The notes under the pieces are model-generated. The model saw only the letters and a program-made list of their open reading frames with translations, had not been told where the DNA came from and made no database searches. Of a stretch of DNA of 64,000 nucleotides, positions 6,903-14,896 are shown piece by piece. The DNA comes from Salinispira pacifica (GTDB lineage: Bacteria; Spirochaetota; Spirochaetia; DSM-27196; Salinispiraceae), in assembly GCF_000507245.1 (NCBI RefSeq), contig NC_023035.1:248001-312000 (forward strand). The letters run 5' to 3'. Position 1 is the stretch's first letter, and every line of letters starts with the position of its first letter. The position numbers and the translations under genes were made by a program.

Positions 6903-9050
6903 GTATGCCCAGCGAAGCGCAGGCATACCCGACCGGTTGGAAGATACCGGTGTCGCCTCGTTCAGGAGGAAGACAATCCGAATTGCAAGGGCGCAGCTGG
7001 CAACGGTTGGGTCTGAAGGAAGCAATAGGAAGTGAACAGCACATAGCGAAAGCGAACCTGATACGGCACAACAGGGGTGGTAAGCGTGCAAAATAGCGCG
7101 AAGCCCGAAACCTGAACAGACCTGTAGTGTGTTTGAGGATGGCGTTGTTTACAGGGACTGCGCACAGTATCTGGGGAAACCTGTTGAAATCCCAGCAAAG
7201 GGTAGGGAACGACAAGCAGAAATGCAAGTCAGATCGAAGTTTCAGCAGGTGGCAGATGAGTCCGTAGTAGTGAGTAAGTTCCGGCCAGTGAAAGCCAGTA
7301 ATGGTGTGGAGGAGAAAACCGGAATGACCTCGTCCCCGGTGACGAGGACTGCATTCAGGCCAAAAGCCGGATGCGGATGCGAAGGGACGAAGTTTTTAGT
7401 AAATCTTGTTTCGATGAAAAGGCTGGTCGGCAGCTACGCTGCCTGCTCGCCTATGCAACCGAAGGAGCGTGAAGCCTAAACAGAAAGTTGCTGGAAAGTG
7501 AGCAGAGTATGTGGCCACGGCCGACTGGGGAACCAGGAAGCTGAGCCAGAATACCGTTGACCTGAGTATCTTTTTGACCAGCTGAATATTGCCGGAAAAT
7601 GGCTAAGAGACAGCTGCAGAGGAGAGAATGAGCAGGAGTTTCACCGCCGAGGTTTCAAACGAAAGAAGATGCAGACACAAGGAAATCGTAAAATCTGGTA
7701 CAGCCTCTACGGCAGGATGCTCGAGAGACCACGGCTGGAGGCCGCTTTCAGGAAGGTGAAGGCAGCGAACGGAGCCCCCGGAGTAGACGGAGTGAGCGTC
7801 AAAGCCTTTGCCGACCGTCTGGCGGAGCAACTCGATGTACTTGTGAAGGAATTGAAGGACAAGAGCTACCGACCGCTTCCAGTCTTGAGGGTGGAAATAC
7901 CCAAAGACGGGGGAGGAGTAAGGAAACTCGGGATACCTTCGGTTCGCGACCGGGTAGTCCAGCAAGCCTTACTGGACATTCTAAACCCAATATTTGACCC
8001 GGACTTTCATCCGTCCAGTTACGGATACCGACCGGGCAGAAGCGCACATCAGGCAATTGAGAAGGCATCTACGTTCATGCGCAGGTATGAATTGGAATGG
8101 GTAGTGGATATGGACTTGTCGAAGTGTTTTGACACACTGAAGCATGACTTTTTACTGACTCAAGTACGAAAACGAGTTGCCGATGGAAGCATCTTGAATC
8201 TCATACGCCTCTTTCTTGAAAGTGGTGTGATGACGGATGCTGGTGAAGAGAACACTGAAGAAGGGAGTCCCCAGGGCGGGGTGATTAGTCCGCTTCTCGC
8301 GAACATCTACCTCGACTTCTTTGACCAGTGGAGCATGGCACGAGGGTATCGCATAGTTCGCTATGCCGACGATATCCTCATCTTTGCTTCATCACAAAAA
8401 GGTGCGGAACGTCGGCTTGCAGCTGCAACGCATTTTCTGGAAGAAGAAATGGGACTGGCTGTGAATCGTGAGAAAACTCACATTACAAACCTGTATGAGG
8501 GGGTGCGCTACCTTGGAGTAGTAATCTCTCGTCACCACACCCGGATTCAGGAAAAGAAGGTGAAAGCCTTCAAGGACAAGGTCAGGAAACTGACCCGACG
8601 CAACAGCGGGAGACCGCTGGGATCGACAATTTACGAACTCAATCCAGTACTACGCGGGTTTGCTAACTATTTCAGGATAGCAAATTGTACGAAGGTATTC
8701 AGGGAGCTGATGAGCTGGGTACGCAGGCGATTGCGGGCTATTCAGTTGCGACTTTGGAAACGCTCTTCCCGGCTGCACCGCCGATTGCGGCAGCTGGGAT
8801 TTCAAGGCGAGTTCAAACACATCAAGATGAGTTCGTGGAGATCGGCTAAAAGTCCGCTTGCAGCCATGGCGCTGCAAAACAAGCACTTTGAAGAGATGAA
8901 TCTGTTTTCTCTCGACAAGGTACAGGTCGCAATTTCTGTCCGGCAGCTTGCTGGATAACTGAAGACAGGAGCCGTATACGAGGTCCGTACGTACGGTTCT
9001 GTGAGAGGGACAATAAAGGAGGTCATTCCTCCTTTATTGCCCTACTCGAT
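6903..9050 (+). mobile_element. group IIC intron
   Basis: About 2.15 kb. The 5' end is GTATG, a departure from the usual GUGYG, placed right after the glnA terminator T-run. Roughly 760 nt of structured RNA (domains I-III) precede a reverse-transcriptase gene in domain IV. Domain V is recognisable at about 8969-9003 (GAGCCGTATACG pairing with CGTACGGTTCT). Domain VI is the hairpin CAATAAAGGAGG/CCTCCTTTATTG (9011-9038), and the 3' end is near CCTACTCGAT at 9050. All parts look intact, so the intron may be active. Exact ends are inferred from class features and could shift by a few bases. Confidence 0.85.
7669..8958 (+). CDS. group II intron reverse transcriptase/maturase (class C)
   Basis: A 429-residue intron-encoded protein that would help the intron splice and copy it into new sites by target-primed reverse transcription. 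RT motifs in order are GAPGVDGVS, VEIPKDGGGVRKLGIPSVRD, SSYGYRPGRSAHQAI, DMDLSKCFDTL, GSPQGGVISPLLANIYL, the catalytic RYADDILIF (YADD), and a maturase X/thumb region (RRNSGRPL to RGFANYFR). No HNH endonuclease follows, as expected for class C. The frame is intact. The ATG at 7669 has only weak upstream purine pairing. Confidence 0.93.
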   Translation: MQTQGNRKIWYSLYGRMLERPRLEAAFRKVKAANGAPGVDGVSVKAFADRLAEQLDVLVKELKDKSYRPLPVLRVEIPKDGGGVRKLGIPSVRDRVVQQALLDILNPIFDPDFHPSSYGYRPGRSAHQAIEKASTFMRRYELEWVVDMDLSKCFDTLKHDFLLTQVRKRVADGSILNLIRLFLESGVMTDAGEENTEEGSPQGGVISPLLANIYLDFFDQWSMARGYRIVRYADDILIFASSQKGAERRLAAATHFLEEEMGLAVNREKTHITNLYEGVRYLGVVISRHHTRIQEKKVKAFKDKVRKLTRRNSGRPLGSTIYELNPVLRGFANYFRIANCTKVFRELMSWVRRRLRAIQLRLWKRSSRLHRRLRQLGFQGEFKHIKMSSWRSAKSPLAAMALQNKHFEEMNLFSLDKVQVAISVRQLAG

Positions 9051-9153: not shown

Positions 9154-9221
9154 TAATGCGGGTTATGACTGCGGCGGGATGAACGTACTCCCAACCCAGA
9201 ATGCAGGGACCGGCATCAGGG

Positions 9222-9259
9222 GGGTACAACAGACGAGTCTGTACCGGCAGTCTGTACCC
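9222..9259 (+). promoter_or_regulatory. overlapping inverted repeats just before a ribosome-binding site
   Basis: GGGTACA (9222-9228) can pair with TGTACC at 9240-9245 or with TGTACCC at 9253-9259, because GTCTGTACC occurs twice; AGAC/GTCT can form an inner hairpin. The second pairing abuts the GGAGGAG Shine-Dalgarno sequence at 9260. This may be a leader structure or an operator. Confidence 0.35.
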
Positions 9260-9272
9260 GGAGGAGATTGTC

Positions 9273-9971
9273 ATGAACCGGAAATCAGGAATGTTTTCTG
9301 CAGTTTTTCTTCTTATTCCAGCCCTGCTTTTGCTTGTATCTTCCTGCAGCATTATTTTCAAAGATTTGGTTACCAAACCTCAGATTACCACCCATGAACT
9401 GGAGTATTATCTTGATACTACAACCAACACCGGCAGCTTTGATCAAGTAACCATCACCTGGTCTGAAGCAAAACGGGCAGGGTATTATGATGTTCAGCTG
9501 ATCGACCGGGACAGCACTGCGGTATGGGATTTTGACAGAACAGAGGATAATGATACCAGCTTTACCGATCACGGAGAAAAACTCGGTCCCGACAAATTTC
9601 AACCGGGAAAGAGATATGCATACAGAGTCCGGGGATATTCAGATTTTCTGGATGAAGAAGGCCCCTGGTCCGACGACTATGACATTCGAATTCCTGCGTT
9701 TATGCCCCCATGGGAGGTATTTCCCGATATTGGCACATCAGGCGAAATTACCCTGAGTTGGGCAGCTCAGGATCTTGAGGACTTAAGCTATGTCATTCGC
9801 CGGGGTACAGACGGCGAATTTGGTAGTTTCACCCAGCTGGCTGAGGTAAGCGGAAACAGCTACAGTGATGATTCGGTGATTGCCGAACAGGTGTATTATT
9901 ACCGGGTATCGGCCAAACATCCGGAGTACGGCGAGACGCCGTATTTTGCCCTGCAGGCATCGGCACAGTAG
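9273..9971 (+). CDS. lipoprotein with two fibronectin III-like domains
   Basis: A 232-residue predicted lipoprotein. A hydrophobic signal segment ends in the lipobox LVSSC at about residue 25. The mature part contains two beta-sandwich-like units, about 45-145 (VTITWSEAKRAGYYDVQL, YAYRVRGYSD) and 155-230 (EITLSWAAQDL, YYYRVSAKHPEYG), the typical pattern of fibronectin III repeats. It is probably anchored in a membrane and exposed to the periplasm or surface. GGAGGAG before the ATG supports the start. It has its own promoter and a long leader, and converges on the caspase operon. No enzymatic function is apparent. Confidence 0.75.
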   Translation: MNRKSGMFSAVFLLIPALLLLVSSCSIIFKDLVTKPQITTHELEYYLDTTTNTGSFDQVTITWSEAKRAGYYDVQLIDRDSTAVWDFDRTEDNDTSFTDHGEKLGPDKFQPGKRYAYRVRGYSDFLDEEGPWSDDYDIRIPAFMPPWEVFPDIGTSGEITLSWAAQDLEDLSYVIRRGTDGEFGSFTQLAEVSGNSYSDDSVIAEQVYYYRVSAKHPEYGETPYFALQASAQ

Positions 9972-9993
9972 CCGCGAATTTTTCATTACATGC

Positions 9994-10033
9994 GAAAAAA
10001 AAATAGCCGGAGCTCCCGAAAGAGCTGCCGGCT
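9994..10033 (-). terminator. terminator of the sigma/caspase operon, possibly bidirectional
   Basis: The near-perfect stem AGCCGG-AGCTC / GAGCT-GCCGGCT with a 6-nt loop is followed on the minus strand by a run of nine T. It lies between two convergent genes and could also act weakly on the plus strand. Confidence 0.75.
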
Positions 10034-10105
10034 TTCTCCAGATTTTTTGGGGAACGTCCTCGCTACCGGGTGCATTCCTTTTGGACTGCACCCATCACCT
10101 GCAGG

Positions 10106-12775
10106 CTATAATCTGAACCCCAGGGTGAACCTGTTGTGCACGGTTCCGAATCCGGGGATTTCGTAGGAACCGCCCCCCGGACCGTTATACTGGCTGTAGC
10201 CTCCGGTGAGGCCGGGTTCAAGTTCCAGGTCGGCATTAACCCCCATATAGAATCCCATTCCCAGGAACTGCAGTCCCACAACCGCCTTGGCTGAAGGATA
10301 GGTGTAACGGTTTTCAGGATCAAAGATGCTTGCCAGACGCTGGTTGGCATTGTCGCCAACGCTTCCCCGGCGAATGGAGATTTCCAGGTCGGCGTAGAGC
10401 GGACGGAACTTCAACCGGGTTCCCCAGCCGAATCCCATGGTGAGATCCTCAAGCTGATCCACACCGTTCACAGGCAGGATTCCCCCGTACAGGGTTGTAT
10501 AGAAGTTCCTGCTGCCGTTGGCGATTCCCAGGAAATGATGAGTATCATTTTCCACCCACCAGCCGATATCATGAATGCCTTTTTTTACCCAGCTGAACAA
10601 TCCGATGGGAATACCGTAGAGATCGTTGGAGATGTTGATTACCCCCAGTTGGATGCCCTTCATTTCACCCCGTGCGATGTTCAGAACCCCGATTTGCGCA
10701 CCGGCTCCATCTTCGGTGATGTTCACCGTGGACAGCTGTGCTCCGTTGATTCTGCGGCTGCCGTTGAATACACCGGCGACCTGTACGCCGTTCATCAGAC
10801 CGGTTGAGTTAAACACTCCCGCCGCCTGTACGCCGTTCATCTGGTGATCCGCCGTATTGAAGACCCCGGCAAGCTGGGCGCCGCTCAGGGGCTCGTCCGC
10901 CACATTGAAGACCCCTGCAACCTGGGCGGCGCTTGAGCGTTCCATGCTGGTATTGAACACCCCGGCGGTCTGTACGCCGGTGATGCTTCCCTCGGCAGTG
11001 TTGAAAATACCCGCAGATTGCACCCCGGTGAAATTCCTGCGGCTCACGTTACCGATTCCCGAACTCATCACCCCGCTGCTGTTCTCATAAAGAGTGGTGA
11101 ATATTCCTGCTGATGCCAGGCCCGCCAGCCCGCCCAGGTCCAGGATGAGGGGACTGTAGGCGAAGGTGCTTTGAACCGATCTGCCCTCCATCACGGGATA
11201 CGAGATTCCCGGAACTGCAGAGACGTAGAATGGATGATAACTGAGTGTAACCGGCCGGGGGGAAACGGTCTCGTCGGCGGGAGTCTTTTCAATACCCCCG
11301 GCCGTCTTGCTGCCGGTTTTCAGCCCGGTTTCCGGTTCCTTGCGGTTGCCGCTTTCATCGGGCTCAGGCTGAGCAGCTTCGGTGGAAGGGGTGGTTTCGG
11401 AGAAGAAGTCATCTTTATCGCTGAAAAAATCCTCTTCGGTGGTGAAAAAATCATCTTCCACCGCAAAAAAGTCATCCTCCCCAGACGGCCGGCCGCTGTT
11501 GTCCCCGGAAGACTCATCAGAGGCGGACGGTGCCGGTGAAGTTGATCCATCGGCGTTTGTAACGTCATCATATGGTGCCGGCACAGCCCGGGCCCCTTCG
11601 GATGATTGTGCAATTTCCGTGTCCTCATCCATAAAGGGTTCGGATGGGCTTCCTCCTCTGCTGCGGTTCTGTTCCTGCTCCAGAGGATAAAAATCTCCGG
11701 CAACCAGAAACTTCTGGCTTCTGTAGGAAAGATTAAAAGAGTGGTTCCAGGCGGATCCGCTGCTGTCGCTGAGTTCCAGATGGTAGATACCCGGATCCAA
11801 TGCAATTTCAAGAATTTTATCCGCAGGTTTGTTGATCTCTGCTACGATATTTCTCCGTCCGTTCTTTACATACACTCTACCGGCAATCTCCTCATCCAGC
11901 ACCACCGAGCTTACCGGATTGCTGAGATCGGTGAGCACAAGGTCTCCCGAACCGCTGAGATTAATATTGTAGGAGGGGTGCTGTGGACCCGAAAGGCTGC
12001 TGCTGGTGACCGAAAGAGTTTCGTTGAACGCATACTCATACGCCTCATTTAATGTGACTTTCCGGTCCCCCGAGTGATCAGCTGCCCCTCTGAGAGCAGA
12101 AACCATGTAATGGGTGAAAAATGACGCTTCAATCCGGTCTGACTCCTGGGCAAGTTCATCCGCAGAGCTGGAGGTGATAAACGCATGCCCGCTCATGCTG
12201 GAACTGTCATCCAGCAGAAATGGCTGGGTTCGCACTCCGCCTTTTGTGCGGGTAAATGCTCCTGATGCGCAGGAGTCCAGAATCGCAATGCTCACATCCG
12301 CATCCACGCTGTTGATATTCTCCCGGAGCTCCTGGTATGCGAAATGCTCATCGCCCAGAAGCAGCCCTGTCTCATCGGAGTGTCCGGAATAATAGAACAC
12401 GAACTCAACCCGTCTTGAGTCCTCACTGCTTTCATCGATAATCCGGCTCAGGCGGGTAAATGTCTGCTCCACATTCCGCTTTCCGGGATTTTCCAGAACC
12501 ACTCCGTCTCCCGGCAGAATGCCGCCCACTTCTGAAAGAACCCGGGAGAGTTTAATGGCGTCGCTGACTGCCCATCGTAGTTCCTGCCGGGAGCTGCCGC
12601 CGTCGTTGGTTCCCACGAAGAGCCCGAAACGGCGGATGGGTCCGCTGGCCGAGCCTGAATCGCTCTCCTGACCGAAGGCCGGCACTGCCGTGAGCCACAG
12701 CAGGCCGATCAATCCCATGAGAACCGCCCTGCGGATTGTTGTATATCGTCCTGTCTTTTTGGTATGAACGGTCAT
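10106..12775 (-). CDS. exported caspase-like (peptidase C14) protein with surface repeats
   Basis: An 889-residue secreted protein with a signal peptide at about 15-36. A caspase/metacaspase-like domain follows (about 48-285), with the catalytic histidine at H132 (FYYSGHSDETG) and cysteine at C169 (AILDSCASGAF). A middle region has low-complexity acidic sequence, including four 7-residue repeats of the type (E/K)xDFF near 11396-11485. From about 590 to 730 come at least seven copies of a GVQxAGVFN-type repeat like the spirochaetal LA_2272 surface repeats, then a beta-rich C-terminus ending in RFTLGFRL that suggests an outer-membrane barrel. It is the last gene after sigma and anti-sigma genes, with AAGGAG before its ATG. 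Its protease target is unknown. Confidence 0.8.
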   Translation of the reverse strand: MTVHTKKTGRYTTIRRAVLMGLIGLLWLTAVPAFGQESDSGSASGPIRRFGLFVGTNDGGSSRQELRWAVSDAIKLSRVLSEVGGILPGDGVVLENPGKRNVEQTFTRLSRIIDESSEDSRRVEFVFYYSGHSDETGLLLGDEHFAYQELRENINSVDADVSIAILDSCASGAFTRTKGGVRTQPFLLDDSSSMSGHAFITSSSADELAQESDRIEASFFTHYMVSALRGAADHSGDRKVTLNEAYEYAFNETLSVTSSSLSGPQHPSYNINLSGSGDLVLTDLSNPVSSVVLDEEIAGRVYVKNGRRNIVAEINKPADKILEIALDPGIYHLELSDSSGSAWNHSFNLSYRSQKFLVAGDFYPLEQEQNRSRGGSPSEPFMDEDTEIAQSSEGARAVPAPYDDVTNADGSTSPAPSASDESSGDNSGRPSGEDDFFAVEDDFFTTEEDFFSDKDDFFSETTPSTEAAQPEPDESGNRKEPETGLKTGSKTAGGIEKTPADETVSPRPVTLSYHPFYVSAVPGISYPVMEGRSVQSTFAYSPLILDLGGLAGLASAGIFTTLYENSSGVMSSGIGNVSRRNFTGVQSAGIFNTAEGSITGVQTAGVFNTSMERSSAAQVAGVFNVADEPLSGAQLAGVFNTADHQMNGVQAAGVFNSTGLMNGVQVAGVFNGSRRINGAQLSTVNITEDGAGAQIGVLNIARGEMKGIQLGVINISNDLYGIPIGLFSWVKKGIHDIGWWVENDTHHFLGIANGSRNFYTTLYGGILPVNGVDQLEDLTMGFGWGTRLKFRPLYADLEISIRRGSVGDNANQRLASIFDPENRYTYPSAKAVVGLQFLGMGFYMGVNADLELEPGLTGGYSQYNGPGGGSYEIPGFGTVHNRFTLGFRL
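11396..11485 (-). repeat. coding tandem repeat, acidic-Phe-Phe heptads
   Basis: Four consecutive units read EDDFFAV, EDDFFTT, EEDFFSD and KDDFFSE inside the caspase-like protein. They lie in the linker between the protease-like domain and the surface repeats. They resemble short linear docking motifs, but no partner can be named. Confidence 0.6.
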
Positions 12776-12790
12776 AAGGTTCTCCTTAAA

Positions 12791-13672
12791 TTATCTGCCC
12801 GCAGGCTTTACCAGGTCGATGCGGTGCACGCTGAATTCCTCCGGGAAATCCAGTTCCCCGCTTCGTGTCCACCGTGCAGATTTCAACTGTGGTGCGATGG
12901 ATGCCAACAGGTCACCCACATCAAATGCTTCCTCGGAACTCACGAAAAAGAATCTTTCAAATTGAGGTGCATCATCAAGTCGATATCCATATGGAAGATA
13001 TACCTCATCATAGGGCTGTAATCGGGGAAGAATATCAGAATTTTCCGGATAATGAAGAGTTATTACATCCCGTGAGTCCACGGAGATAATCGCCCCGTAA
13101 TTTTTCCCTGTTGCCAGATAGCTGATCTGCAGATTATCTCCCTGAAAGCTGCGGTCCCCGTCTTCCAGCAACTCCGCGTCCCCGTCTCCCAGATCCCGGT
13201 AAATGAAGATCCGCGGCTCCAGTCCCTTGGTGCGGATGCCGTCGCCCGCCGGATCTGCCTGATCCATGGGAAGGGCGAAGCGGAACACCAGACCCAGAAC
13301 CAGTACCACCGGCAGAGCTGCGGCCAAAGCTGCACTCCAGCCCGGGTTTTTGAACCGTGAGATGAAGCTTTTCTTCGGTTTCGGGGGCAGGGGTTCACCA
13401 TGCTCAGGAATATCCAGAACTCCCGATGCAATTCTGCGTGATTCCATGGATTCGGCGAAGGCTCTGCGGCGAATTTCCGCAAGTTCCGACTGTGTGTCGT
13501 GCTGCTGAAGGAAGCGGGTGTTGGCATCTTTCAGCCGATCCACCGCTGCATCGAAATCCCGGGGGGAGAAACCGGGGCGGGAGGAAATATCCTGCCATGT
13601 TTCTTCACCGAGCTCATCCACGGCGGCCTGTTCCAAATATAAATCCTGTACCTGTGTTGAATTGTGTTTCAT
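12791..13672 (-). CDS. membrane anti-sigma-like protein with DUF4384-like C-terminal domain
   Basis: A 293-residue protein with one predicted transmembrane helix (about 112-134) between an N-terminal cytosolic region and a C-terminal extracytoplasmic domain. The N-terminus (LYLEQAAVDELGEETW) and its position right after an ECF sigma gene suggest an anti-sigma factor, although no HCCxxC zinc motif is visible. The C-terminal part (LQISYLATGKNYGAIISV, VITLHYPE) resembles DUF4384-like domains often encoded beside caspase-family proteins. It would sense a signal outside the membrane and release the sigma factor. It sits 4 bp after the sigma gene and 15 bp before the caspase gene. The role is inferred mainly from context. 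Confidence 0.6.
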   Translation of the reverse strand: MKHNSTQVQDLYLEQAAVDELGEETWQDISSRPGFSPRDFDAAVDRLKDANTRFLQQHDTQSELAEIRRRAFAESMESRRIASGVLDIPEHGEPLPPKPKKSFISRFKNPGWSAALAAALPVVLVLGLVFRFALPMDQADPAGDGIRTKGLEPRIFIYRDLGDGDAELLEDGDRSFQGDNLQISYLATGKNYGAIISVDSRDVITLHYPENSDILPRLQPYDEVYLPYGYRLDDAPQFERFFFVSSEEAFDVGDLLASIAPQLKSARWTRSGELDFPEEFSVHRIDLVKPAGR

Positions 13673-13676
13673 GTTT

Positions 13677-14150
13677 TCAAGCCTCCTTCAGGGCTTTTCC
13701 CCTGGACTGCAGTTTTCTCAGGCGTTTGCGGATACCCGAGACGGACATCCCGACGTGAGAAGCGGTTTCCTCCAGGGTGTACTTATCAACATAATGGAGC
13801 CATGCAATGATTCTGGTTTTGTCATCATCAATCGCAAAGAGCCGCTCCAGGAAATGGCGGGCCAGAACCGTTTCTCCGCTTGGATCTATCCATCCGGGGT
13901 CCTGATCCTCAACCGCCGCATGCTGTCGAAGTTTCTGTGACCTGAGGTAGTTCAGGCTCAAATTGGTTGCCATGGTGTACAGAAGGCTGGACGGTCCCTT
14001 ATGCTCCAGCCGGTTCTGAAAGCGCAGGAGATTTACAAATACATCCTGCATAATATCCTGGGCTGCCTCATCATTCTTCACAATGCCGAGACAGCGGCGG
14101 TACACCATGGGGGCGTATTTTTCATAATAGCTTTCAATATTGATATTCAC
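13677..14150 (-). CDS. ECF-type RNA polymerase sigma factor
   Basis: A 157-residue sigma-70 family factor of extracytoplasmic-function size. Region 2 is about residues 5-70 (YAPMVYRRCLGIVKNDEAAQ, DIMQDVFVNLL). Region 4 is about 105-155 and contains a helix-turn-helix (YTLEETASHVGMSVSGIRKR). The GTG at 14150 was chosen because AGGAG lies 6 nt upstream; an in-frame ATG at 14210 lacks a site and would overlap the divergent eda promoter. It is the first gene of an operon with an anti-sigma-like protein and a caspase-like protein. A GGGAAC element at 14208-14203 may be its own ECF promoter. Confidence 0.85.
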   Translation of the reverse strand: MNINIESYYEKYAPMVYRRCLGIVKNDEAAQDIMQDVFVNLLRFQNRLEHKGPSSLLYTMATNLSLNYLRSQKLRQHAAVEDQDPGWIDPSGETVLARHFLERLFAIDDDKTRIIAWLHYVDKYTLEETASHVGMSVSGIRKRLRKLQSRGKALKEA

Positions 14151-14180
14151 TCTGCGCTCCTGAATTGGTTCATAGACTCT

Positions 14181-14208
14181 AACAGCTCTGAGCAGAAAAT
14201 ATGTTCCC
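14181..14208 (-). promoter_or_regulatory. possible ECF-dependent promoter of the sigma operon
   Basis: On the minus strand, GGGAAC (14208-14203) is followed about 17-19 nt later by GTT (14183-14181), similar to the GGAAC/CGTT promoters of ECF sigma factors. This would give positive autoregulation. It overlaps the -35 region of the divergent eda promoter. Confidence 0.35.
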
Positions 14209-14233
14209 ATATTCTTTCCCTTGCCTCTATAAT
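14204..14233 (+). promoter_or_regulatory. eda promoter, leaderless geometry
   Basis: A consensus TATAAT (14228-14233) stands 6 nt before the ATG at 14240; the -35 is weak (TTCCCA, 14204-14209, 18-bp spacer). No Shine-Dalgarno sequence is present, so translation probably starts at the 5' end of the mRNA. Confidence 0.55.
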
Positions 14234-14239
14234 TCAGCT

Positions 14240-14896
14240 ATGAGTCTTTTTGAAAAAATTGCGGAATACCGGATAATTCCGGTGCTGAATCTTCCGGAGC
14301 CCCAGCCGGCCATCCGTCTTGCCCAGCTGTTTCTGGAAGAGGGACTGCCTGTAATGGAAATTACGTTCCGGAATTCCGGAGCATCTCAGGTGATCCGGGC
14401 TGTCCGTGAGCGTTTTCCGGAAATGCTCCTGGGCGCCGGTACGGTGAGGCAGCCGGAACAGCTGGATGATGCCCTGGAAGCGGGGGTGGATTTTCTGGTT
14501 TCACCCAGTCTTGTCCCCGGGGTTATCCGTTCCTGGGATGCCATGCGCAGCAATGGAGCGGCCCCTCCTCCCTACATACCCGGGATCGCCACGGTCAGGG
14601 AGGCGGAGGAGGCTCTGGAATACGGCTTAACGCTGCTCAAATTTTTTCCTGCTTCTGTATCCGGAGGTCCGGGGATGCTCAAGGCCATCAAGGCCACCCA
14701 TCCGGAATTGAAATTTATTCCAACCGGAGGCATCAATCTTGAAAATCTGTCGGATTATCTGAAGCTGCCGAATGTGACTGCATGCGGAGCAAGTTCGGTT
14801 TTCAACCGTTCGGCCTTCGAATCCGGAGATATTGAGGCAGTGCGGGAGAGAATCCGGGATTTCCTGACGGTCCGGGGAATCAGTCTCCCTGAATGA
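14240..14896 (+). CDS. eda: KDPG/KHG aldolase
   Basis: A 218-residue class I aldolase splitting 2-keto-3-deoxy-6-phosphogluconate to pyruvate and glyceraldehyde 3-phosphate, or 4-hydroxy-2-oxoglutarate to pyruvate and glyoxylate. Visible are the catalytic glutamate in VMEITFRN, GAGTV, the Schiff-base lysine in LLKFFPAS, and the phosphate-binding PTGGI. No edd or sugar-acid genes are next to it, so the pathway (Entner-Doudoroff or hexuronate breakdown) is open. It appears to be a leaderless single gene. Its end overlaps the convergent glnE by 17 bp. Confidence 0.92.
   Translation: MSLFEKIAEYRIIPVLNLPEPQPAIRLAQLFLEEGLPVMEITFRNSGASQVIRAVRERFPEMLLGAGTVRQPEQLDDALEAGVDFLVSPSLVPGVIRSWDAMRSNGAAPPPYIPGIATVREAEEALEYGLTLLKFFPASVSGGPGMLKAIKATHPELKFIPTGGINLENLSDYLKLPNVTACGASSVFNRSAFESGDIEAVRERIRDFLTVRGISLPE

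Follow-up and report, generated by a model that had tools for sequence, protein, structure and literature searches.

A 64,000-nucleotide stretch of the Salinispira pacifica genome (contig NC_023035.1, positions 248,001–312,000; hereafter the window, numbered from its first nucleotide) contains three consecutive minus-strand genes that specify an extracytoplasmic function (ECF) sigma factor, a single-pass anti-sigma-like protein designated ANTI, and an exported caspase-barrel protein designated CASP. We regard it as probable that these genes form a self-contained envelope signaling circuit in which CASP cuts ANTI and frees the sigma factor, which then switches on its own operon and a small regulon. 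Comparative sequence analysis supports the operon, its promoter, a regulon gene, the domain architecture, a protease-type active site and a set of conserved motifs; we infer the cleavage events, the membrane orientation of the proteins and the order of events.

Organization and distribution of the operon

The host genome is a single contig of 3.78 Mb and its relatives are spirochaetes. The list of open reading frames (ORFs) and Pfam and NCBIfam scans of the window placed the ECF sigma factor gene (13677–14150) first, followed by the genes for ANTI (293 amino acids; 12791–13672) and CASP (889 amino acids; 10106–12775), all features of the operon being on the minus strand. ANTI was assigned as a putative single-pass anti-sigma factor from its AlphaFold2 topology and orthologue family, and CASP from its Pfam and NCBIfam domains and AlphaFold2 model. 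Both were modeled at full length, such that the barrel of CASP was folded within the whole protein. Residue numbers are those of the window proteins, and the labels L and G denote relative loci and genomes that were compared. A first-pass annotation of the locus had proposed a three-gene operon for an ECF sigma factor, a single-pass protein and an exported caspase-like protein, with which ORFs, domains and colinearity agree.

The sigma factor product matched Sigma70_r2 in Pfam (1e-12) and the sigma70-ECF family of NCBIfam (57 bits, above cut-off). The longest ORF extends from 13677 to 14210, and homologues begin ~20 residues further in. The true start probably is a GTG codon at 14148–14150, 60 bases inside the annotated ATG, because the promoter described below overlaps the annotated ATG, homology begins at the GTG, and the latter is preceded by AGGAG.

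Within the order, 11 of 46 genomes encode caspase-bearing relatives of CASP, and in all 11 the genes for ANTI and the sigma factor were located directly upstream in the same arrangement. Across 393 genomes of the spirochaete phylum there were 56 caspase-type matches, each with the ANTI gene directly upstream on the same strand. Co-occurrence in spirochaetes, a check that the first-pass annotation had advised, thus holds for all three genes in the order and for the caspase and ANTI genes across the phylum. Six ANTI genes were without a listed caspase: three are at contig ends, two are beside a caspase with another C-terminal domain, and the sixth has decayed and adjoins a truncated caspase. A wider scan of one genome per species (84,980 species) produced 274 relatives, among which the best 80 loci were examined. 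The sigma, anti-sigma and caspase genes are colinear in 73 of these 80 best GTDB loci; of the remainder, five are truncated at contig ends and two show rearrangements. Named carriers include Treponema bryantii, Breznakiella homolactica and Enhygromyxa salina, and the operon also is present in metagenome-assembled genomes of Myxococcota, Aminicenantes, Acidobacteriota, Gammaproteobacteria and FCPU426, assignments that may contain errors. At L133 (2979–6220) and L120, a caspase-less barrel/repeat protein is encoded downstream of a sigma/anti-sigma pair and divergently from a caspase gene. A DNA-level search for plasmid carriage of the operon gave no match. Full-text literature searches returned no account of such an operon; the main ECF re-classification (NAR 2021) was outside their coverage and an earlier mention of the neighborhood is possible.

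Architecture and active site of CASP

The CASP protein is modular. A signal peptide (~residues 1–36; 12668–12775) is indicated by a basic n-region, a hydrophobic core, the sequence PAFG-QE and a helix at residues 13–34 in the AlphaFold2 model, in which the helix is followed by a caspase domain, a small beta domain, a linker that is disordered from residue 373 and, at the C-terminus, an all-beta domain. The caspase domain of family C14 (residues 44–290; 11906–12646) matched Peptidase_C14 in Pfam with 41.4 bits versus a cut-off of 21.4. The best structural match of the predicted domain was Arabidopsis metacaspase 4 (6w8r), with a VIA-align Z of 20.6 and a root-mean-square deviation (rmsd) of 2.8 over 208 residues. 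The C-terminal domain (residues 511–889; 10109–11245) contains the LA_2272-like repeats recognized in the first-pass annotation, which scored 54 bits with NF047436, above cut-off, and has an outer-membrane-barrel-like end. The barrel that had been considered possible emerged also from structure prediction: the Foldseek matches of this domain were the outer-membrane barrels OmpA, NspA, PagL and OmpX. The caspase also had been described as fused to FF-rich heptads. These heptads are present at residues 433–460 (11396–11479), but lie inside the disordered linker, are absent from all nine aligned relatives of the order and were seen in this species only. By this comparison they do not belong to the conserved core of the system. 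In other phyla the C-terminus of CASP is replaced by different barrels, which at L138 and L139 are PF13505-like with scores below the curated cut-off. In one genome that possesses four copies of the operon, CASP is fused to CsgG-like domains or to CsgG and Kelch domains (L142:4351–6270; L143:5651–8026).

The catalytic pair H132 (12380–12382) and C169 (12269–12271), which had been identified correctly from the single sequence, is invariant in 81 of 81 CASP homologues, as are D72, S130 and D167. Metacaspases and orthocaspases cleave after Arg or Lys. In the alignment, D72, S130 and D167 are equivalent to Asp95, Ser156 and Asp211 that constitute the proposed S1 pocket of TbMCA2 (PMC4357240). The comparison shows that CASP has a protease-type active site with the same acidic S1 residues as metacaspases specific for Arg/Lys.

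Architecture of ANTI

The AlphaFold2 model of ANTI comprises a helical N-terminal domain, a transmembrane helix at residues 112–133 (13274–13339) that coincides with a hydrophobic segment, a disordered region at ~134–153, and an outer beta-sandwich domain at residues 154–288 (12809–13213). The outer domain had been termed DUF4384-like. DUF4384 (PF14326) matched nine of 11 ANTI orthologues, with a best value of 1e-5, and the orthologue from G041 exceeded the cut-off (27.3 bits versus 27), but the window protein itself scored 12.4 bits, under the cut-off. A fold search with the outer domain retrieved beta sandwiches, the best of which was an S-layer protein (Z 8.9, rmsd 3.7, 123 residues), and gave no specific structural relative. 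Elsewhere, a genome without the operon has a cluster in which a DUF4384 protein is encoded alongside several further exported proteins that are caspase-like (L045:3140–12720).

Conserved [K/R]-G motifs in CASP and ANTI

Alignments of 81 CASP and 68 ANTI sequences contain few conserved [K/R]-G pairs: three in CASP and one in ANTI. The region just after the catalytic cysteine is a common place of processing in caspases. In CASP this region is a loop of low predicted local distance difference test (pLDDT) scores with the sequence R176-x-K178-G179-G180 (12236–12250), in which K178 and G179 are conserved in 81 of 81 sequences and R176 in 80 of 81; it is the proposed autoprocessing site. The second pair, R373-G374 (11654–11659), is the proposed release site. 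It marks the start of the disordered linker, where pLDDT values drop below 50 from residue 373, and is the sole conserved feature of a hypervariable stretch: residue 373 is Arg in 79 and Lys in two of the 81 homologues, and G374 is present in all. The pair is maintained whatever domain follows, and R373 is exchanged only for Lys, including in the divergent CsgG-fused copies.

The ANTI pair is located in the variable, low-pLDDT linker just outside the membrane, within the sequence R147-T-K149-G150 (13223–13234) that is proposed as a site-1 cleavage site. Lys-149 is conserved in 68 of 68 sequences, Gly-150 in 67 and Arg-147 in 64. At L130 the Lys of the motif is kept and Gly is changed to Ser, and the apparent exceptions at L111, L114 and L138 are alignment shifts. 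The RxKGG loop is absent from the examined caspases of related spirochaete genomes that are outside such operons, and the upstream RxKG is absent from DUF4384 proteins outside the system. In genome G391 the caspase and the anti-sigma protein both are degraded. A decayed copy at L144 (5299–6591), beside a truncated caspase, has a truncated ANTI N-terminus and an RxKG motif without the Arg.

The L143 locus of genome G207 is particularly informative. It possesses a different sigma factor and an anti-sigma protein with a zf-HC2 domain above cut-off, with an RIKG-bearing outer domain and a caspase, in which R373 is replaced by Lys, being retained. Thus, in the comparison the outer domain of ANTI and the caspase act like a single module that is attachable to different sigma/anti-sigma pairs, and this joint movement is the main argument that the caspase would act on ANTI.

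Promoter and regulon

The first-pass annotation had suggested autoregulation through GGGAAC, which the phylogenetic comparison supports. The motif G[GT][AG]AC-N18-TGTT was found upstream of the sigma factor gene in 51 of 76 loci, compared to an expectation of 1.0 and a maximum of three loci in 100 dinucleotide shuffles. The spacing was exactly 18 in all 51 loci, although 15–20 was allowed. As the window copy of this promoter, GGAACA-N16-CTGTTA, is situated at 14207–14180 with the –35 and –10 hexamers at 14202–14207 and 14180–14185, respectively, GGGAAC is assigned as the –35 element of a conserved, putatively autoregulatory ECF promoter. The classic ECF pattern GGGAAC-N14–19-CGT was rejected: it occurred at chance level in the window and upstream of the sigma factor genes, the real –10 element being TGTT at a spacing of 18.

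A genome-wide scan for the promoter in S. pacifica yielded 11 sites versus six for a reversed-pattern control, which is near background. One of the sites precedes an unlinked gene for an exported protein of 188 amino acids, as does a site at the homologue in another family of the order. The protein belongs to a family of exported, glycine-rich proteins of 183–190 amino acids (L193:1311–1877, minus strand, and L207–L217) and matched no Pfam or NCBIfam family. Homologues are present in 11 genomes of the order, a set that nearly coincides with the carriers of the operon, and in all 11 the promoter is on the correct strand ~50–130 bases from the family match. The gene is unlinked to the operon and therefore points to a real regulon, of which the 188-residue family is the candidate first member. 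Since the genome-wide count is near background and the family recurs in 11 genomes, the regulon claim is limited to this family.

Genes for DUF2807 (GIN) proteins adjoin the operon in two phyla (L102:7570–8418; L124:3941–4690), and in a third genome (G414) such a gene is behind the same promoter motif (L204:1546–2262). The DUF2807 proteins are a possible second regulon family and a weaker lead.

Proposed mechanism and alternative explanations

A sequence of events can be outlined on this basis. CASP would leave the cytoplasm as a zymogen of the caspase type, its catalytic domain being tethered to the outer-membrane barrel and most likely facing the periplasm, while the cytoplasmic helical domain of ANTI would retain the sigma factor at the inner membrane. 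An envelope signal would activate CASP, which probably would cleave itself after K178 and detach from the barrel by a cut after R373, whereupon the activated enzyme would cut ANTI after K149, just outside the membrane. The first-pass annotation had suggested envelope stress or contact as the trigger, for which the analysis yielded no support. Intramembrane proteolysis by an M50 protease may provide the site-2 step that frees the sigma factor; a gene for an M50 site-2 protease is present in the genome. The freed sigma factor then would drive transcription of its own operon, creating a positive feedback loop, and of a small set of regulon genes for exported proteins.

Four points weigh against this scheme. 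The side of the outer membrane on which the caspase resides, periplasmic or external, is part of what we infer, with the periplasm most likely, and a caspase confined to the surface could not reach ANTI. The K-G and R-G motifs could instead serve folding, docking or another protease. Moreover, the third conserved pair in CASP, R229-G230, lies inside the folded domain, showing that a conserved [K/R]-G need not be a cut site. Finally, the N-terminal domain of the window ANTI matched no family in the Pfam scan, an anti-sigma zinc finger being seen only in the L143 relative, and its description as anti-sigma-like is derived from the order of the genes, the predicted fold and the variant at L143.

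Signaling across the envelope might proceed without proteolysis by CASP: the barrel would sense a ligand, the periplasmic N-terminal domain would bind ANTI, general proteases of the DegS or Prc type would perform the cutting, and RxKG would be a binding element. Cell-surface signaling has the same gene order, namely a sigma factor, an anti-sigma factor and a barrel that bears an N-terminal domain; in such systems the anti-sigma factor is contacted by the transducer domain and processed by Prc and RseP (PMC11637429). However, the invariance of the dyad and S1 residues in every homologue would not be needed by a mere binding domain, the conserved motifs fit the expected P1 residues, and Pfam found no TonB-type signaling domain in the window CASP. 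We judge this explanation unlikely.

Alternatively, the caspase may be the output of the circuit, an exported protease induced by the sigma factor that attacks competitors, predators, envelope proteins or its own cell. The sigma factor then would be freed by other means and the [K/R]-G pairs of CASP would reflect self-maturation. CASP is encoded last in an autoregulated operon, its C-termini vary among barrels, CsgG-like and Kelch domains as in effectors, and known cascades of regulated intramembrane proteolysis rely on DegS-type site-1 proteases. Nevertheless, such an output leaves the strict retention of the membrane-adjacent Lys of the K-G pair in ANTI (68 of 68 aligned sequences) unaccounted for, as it does the continued pairing of the ANTI outer domain with the caspase when the sigma factor and inner domain are swapped. 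This proposal we consider improbable. A role in anti-phage defense was unsupported by comparison with the PADLOC families, in which CASP and ANTI had no match and the sigma factor had only weak matches in its helix-turn-helix region, in agreement with the initial view that the system is unlike cytosolic caspase defense modules.

Comparison with known systems

Cleavage of ANTI by CASP, the explanation that we prefer, was compared with established pathways. The FecIRA and FoxIRA systems share with the operon a three-gene order, a single-pass anti-sigma factor with an outer domain, here predicted, sigma-dependent transcription, and a partner protein composed of an N-terminal domain and an outer-membrane barrel. 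In contrast to these systems, a caspase domain with an intact dyad replaces the TonB-transducer signaling domain, and the outer domain of the anti-sigma protein is a DUF4384-like beta sandwich. Pfam detected no STN/Secretin_N domain of TonB-dependent transducers in the window CASP or in the other loci scanned, and for this reason the operon, which may work like FecIRA-type signaling, is not regarded as a member. Known cell-surface signaling employs the general proteases Prc, CtpA and RseP, and its site-1 protease is still unidentified (PMC11637429).

Craspase, the type III-E CRISPR effector, is the only precedent found for a caspase-fold enzyme that acts on an inhibitor of an ECF sigma factor: Csx29 (TPR-CHAT) cuts Csx30, the inhibitor of CASP-sigma (PMC10028731). 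A caspase-fold protease is proposed to act here likewise on the inhibitor of an ECF-type sigma factor. However, Craspase is cytoplasmic, RNA-activated, of the CHAT family and directed at a soluble inhibitor, whereas the window protein is exported, membrane-bound and of family C14. The RseA-DegS-RseP and RsiW pathways resemble the operon in having a single-pass anti-sigma factor, here predicted, a juxtamembrane site-1 cut, here proposed, and an available site-2 protease, but the site-1 protease here would be an operon-encoded caspase instead of DegS or the protease of RsiW. Orthocaspases and metacaspases (C14B), including Arabidopsis metacaspase 4 and TbMCA2, have in common with CASP the fold noted above, the His-Cys dyad and the acidic S1 residues. 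CASP differs in its signal peptide, fusion to a barrel or CsgG, fixed anti-sigma partner and RxKGG loop, the last being absent from the other spirochaete caspases examined. Sigma factors of group ECF54 have CHAT, subtilase and carboxypeptidase neighbors and are listed among the groups without an anti-sigma factor (PMC8999054); a caspase-clan neighbor of an ECF sigma factor thus is common to both, whereas an anti-sigma protein always is present here. Overall, we favor the interpretation that the operon is an ECF/anti-sigma envelope switch with the caspase as a built-in protease that would cleave ANTI.

Neighboring genes

A group II intron reverse transcriptase/maturase gene (RVT_1 and GIIM; 7669–8958, plus strand) lies ~1.1 kb beyond the operon end. 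A gene at 9201–9971 (plus strand), whose product is putatively exported and weakly FN3-like, is convergent with that for CASP, and a GC-rich hairpin with A/T runs on both sides (9990–10040) that is located between the two is terminator-like and may be shared. On the other flank, a divergent aldolase-like gene (14201–14896, plus strand) starts at most ~60 bases from the sigma promoter, and the promoters may overlap.

Implications

Beyond the initial annotation, the analysis adds the conserved [K/R]-G motifs by which protease and anti-sigma protein are connected, the unlinked regulon gene, and the spread of the system outside the spirochaetes. Bacterial caspases have mostly been discussed in connection with cell death or defense, and much of their function is still to be defined. 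The widespread exported caspases described here have one fixed partner, a predicted substrate with a cut site predicted at the level of the residue, a promoter and a first candidate regulon gene. The case is evenly balanced for the broader notion that, in several phyla, a caspase-family protease is a dedicated, operon-encoded site-1 protease with a universal R-x-K-G site cut between Lys and Gly, which, as a self-activating outer-membrane zymogen, conveys a signal from the envelope to transcription. If true, a system that resembles cell-surface signaling would have a site-1 protease encoded in its own operon, and bacterial caspases would have a concrete role other than in death.

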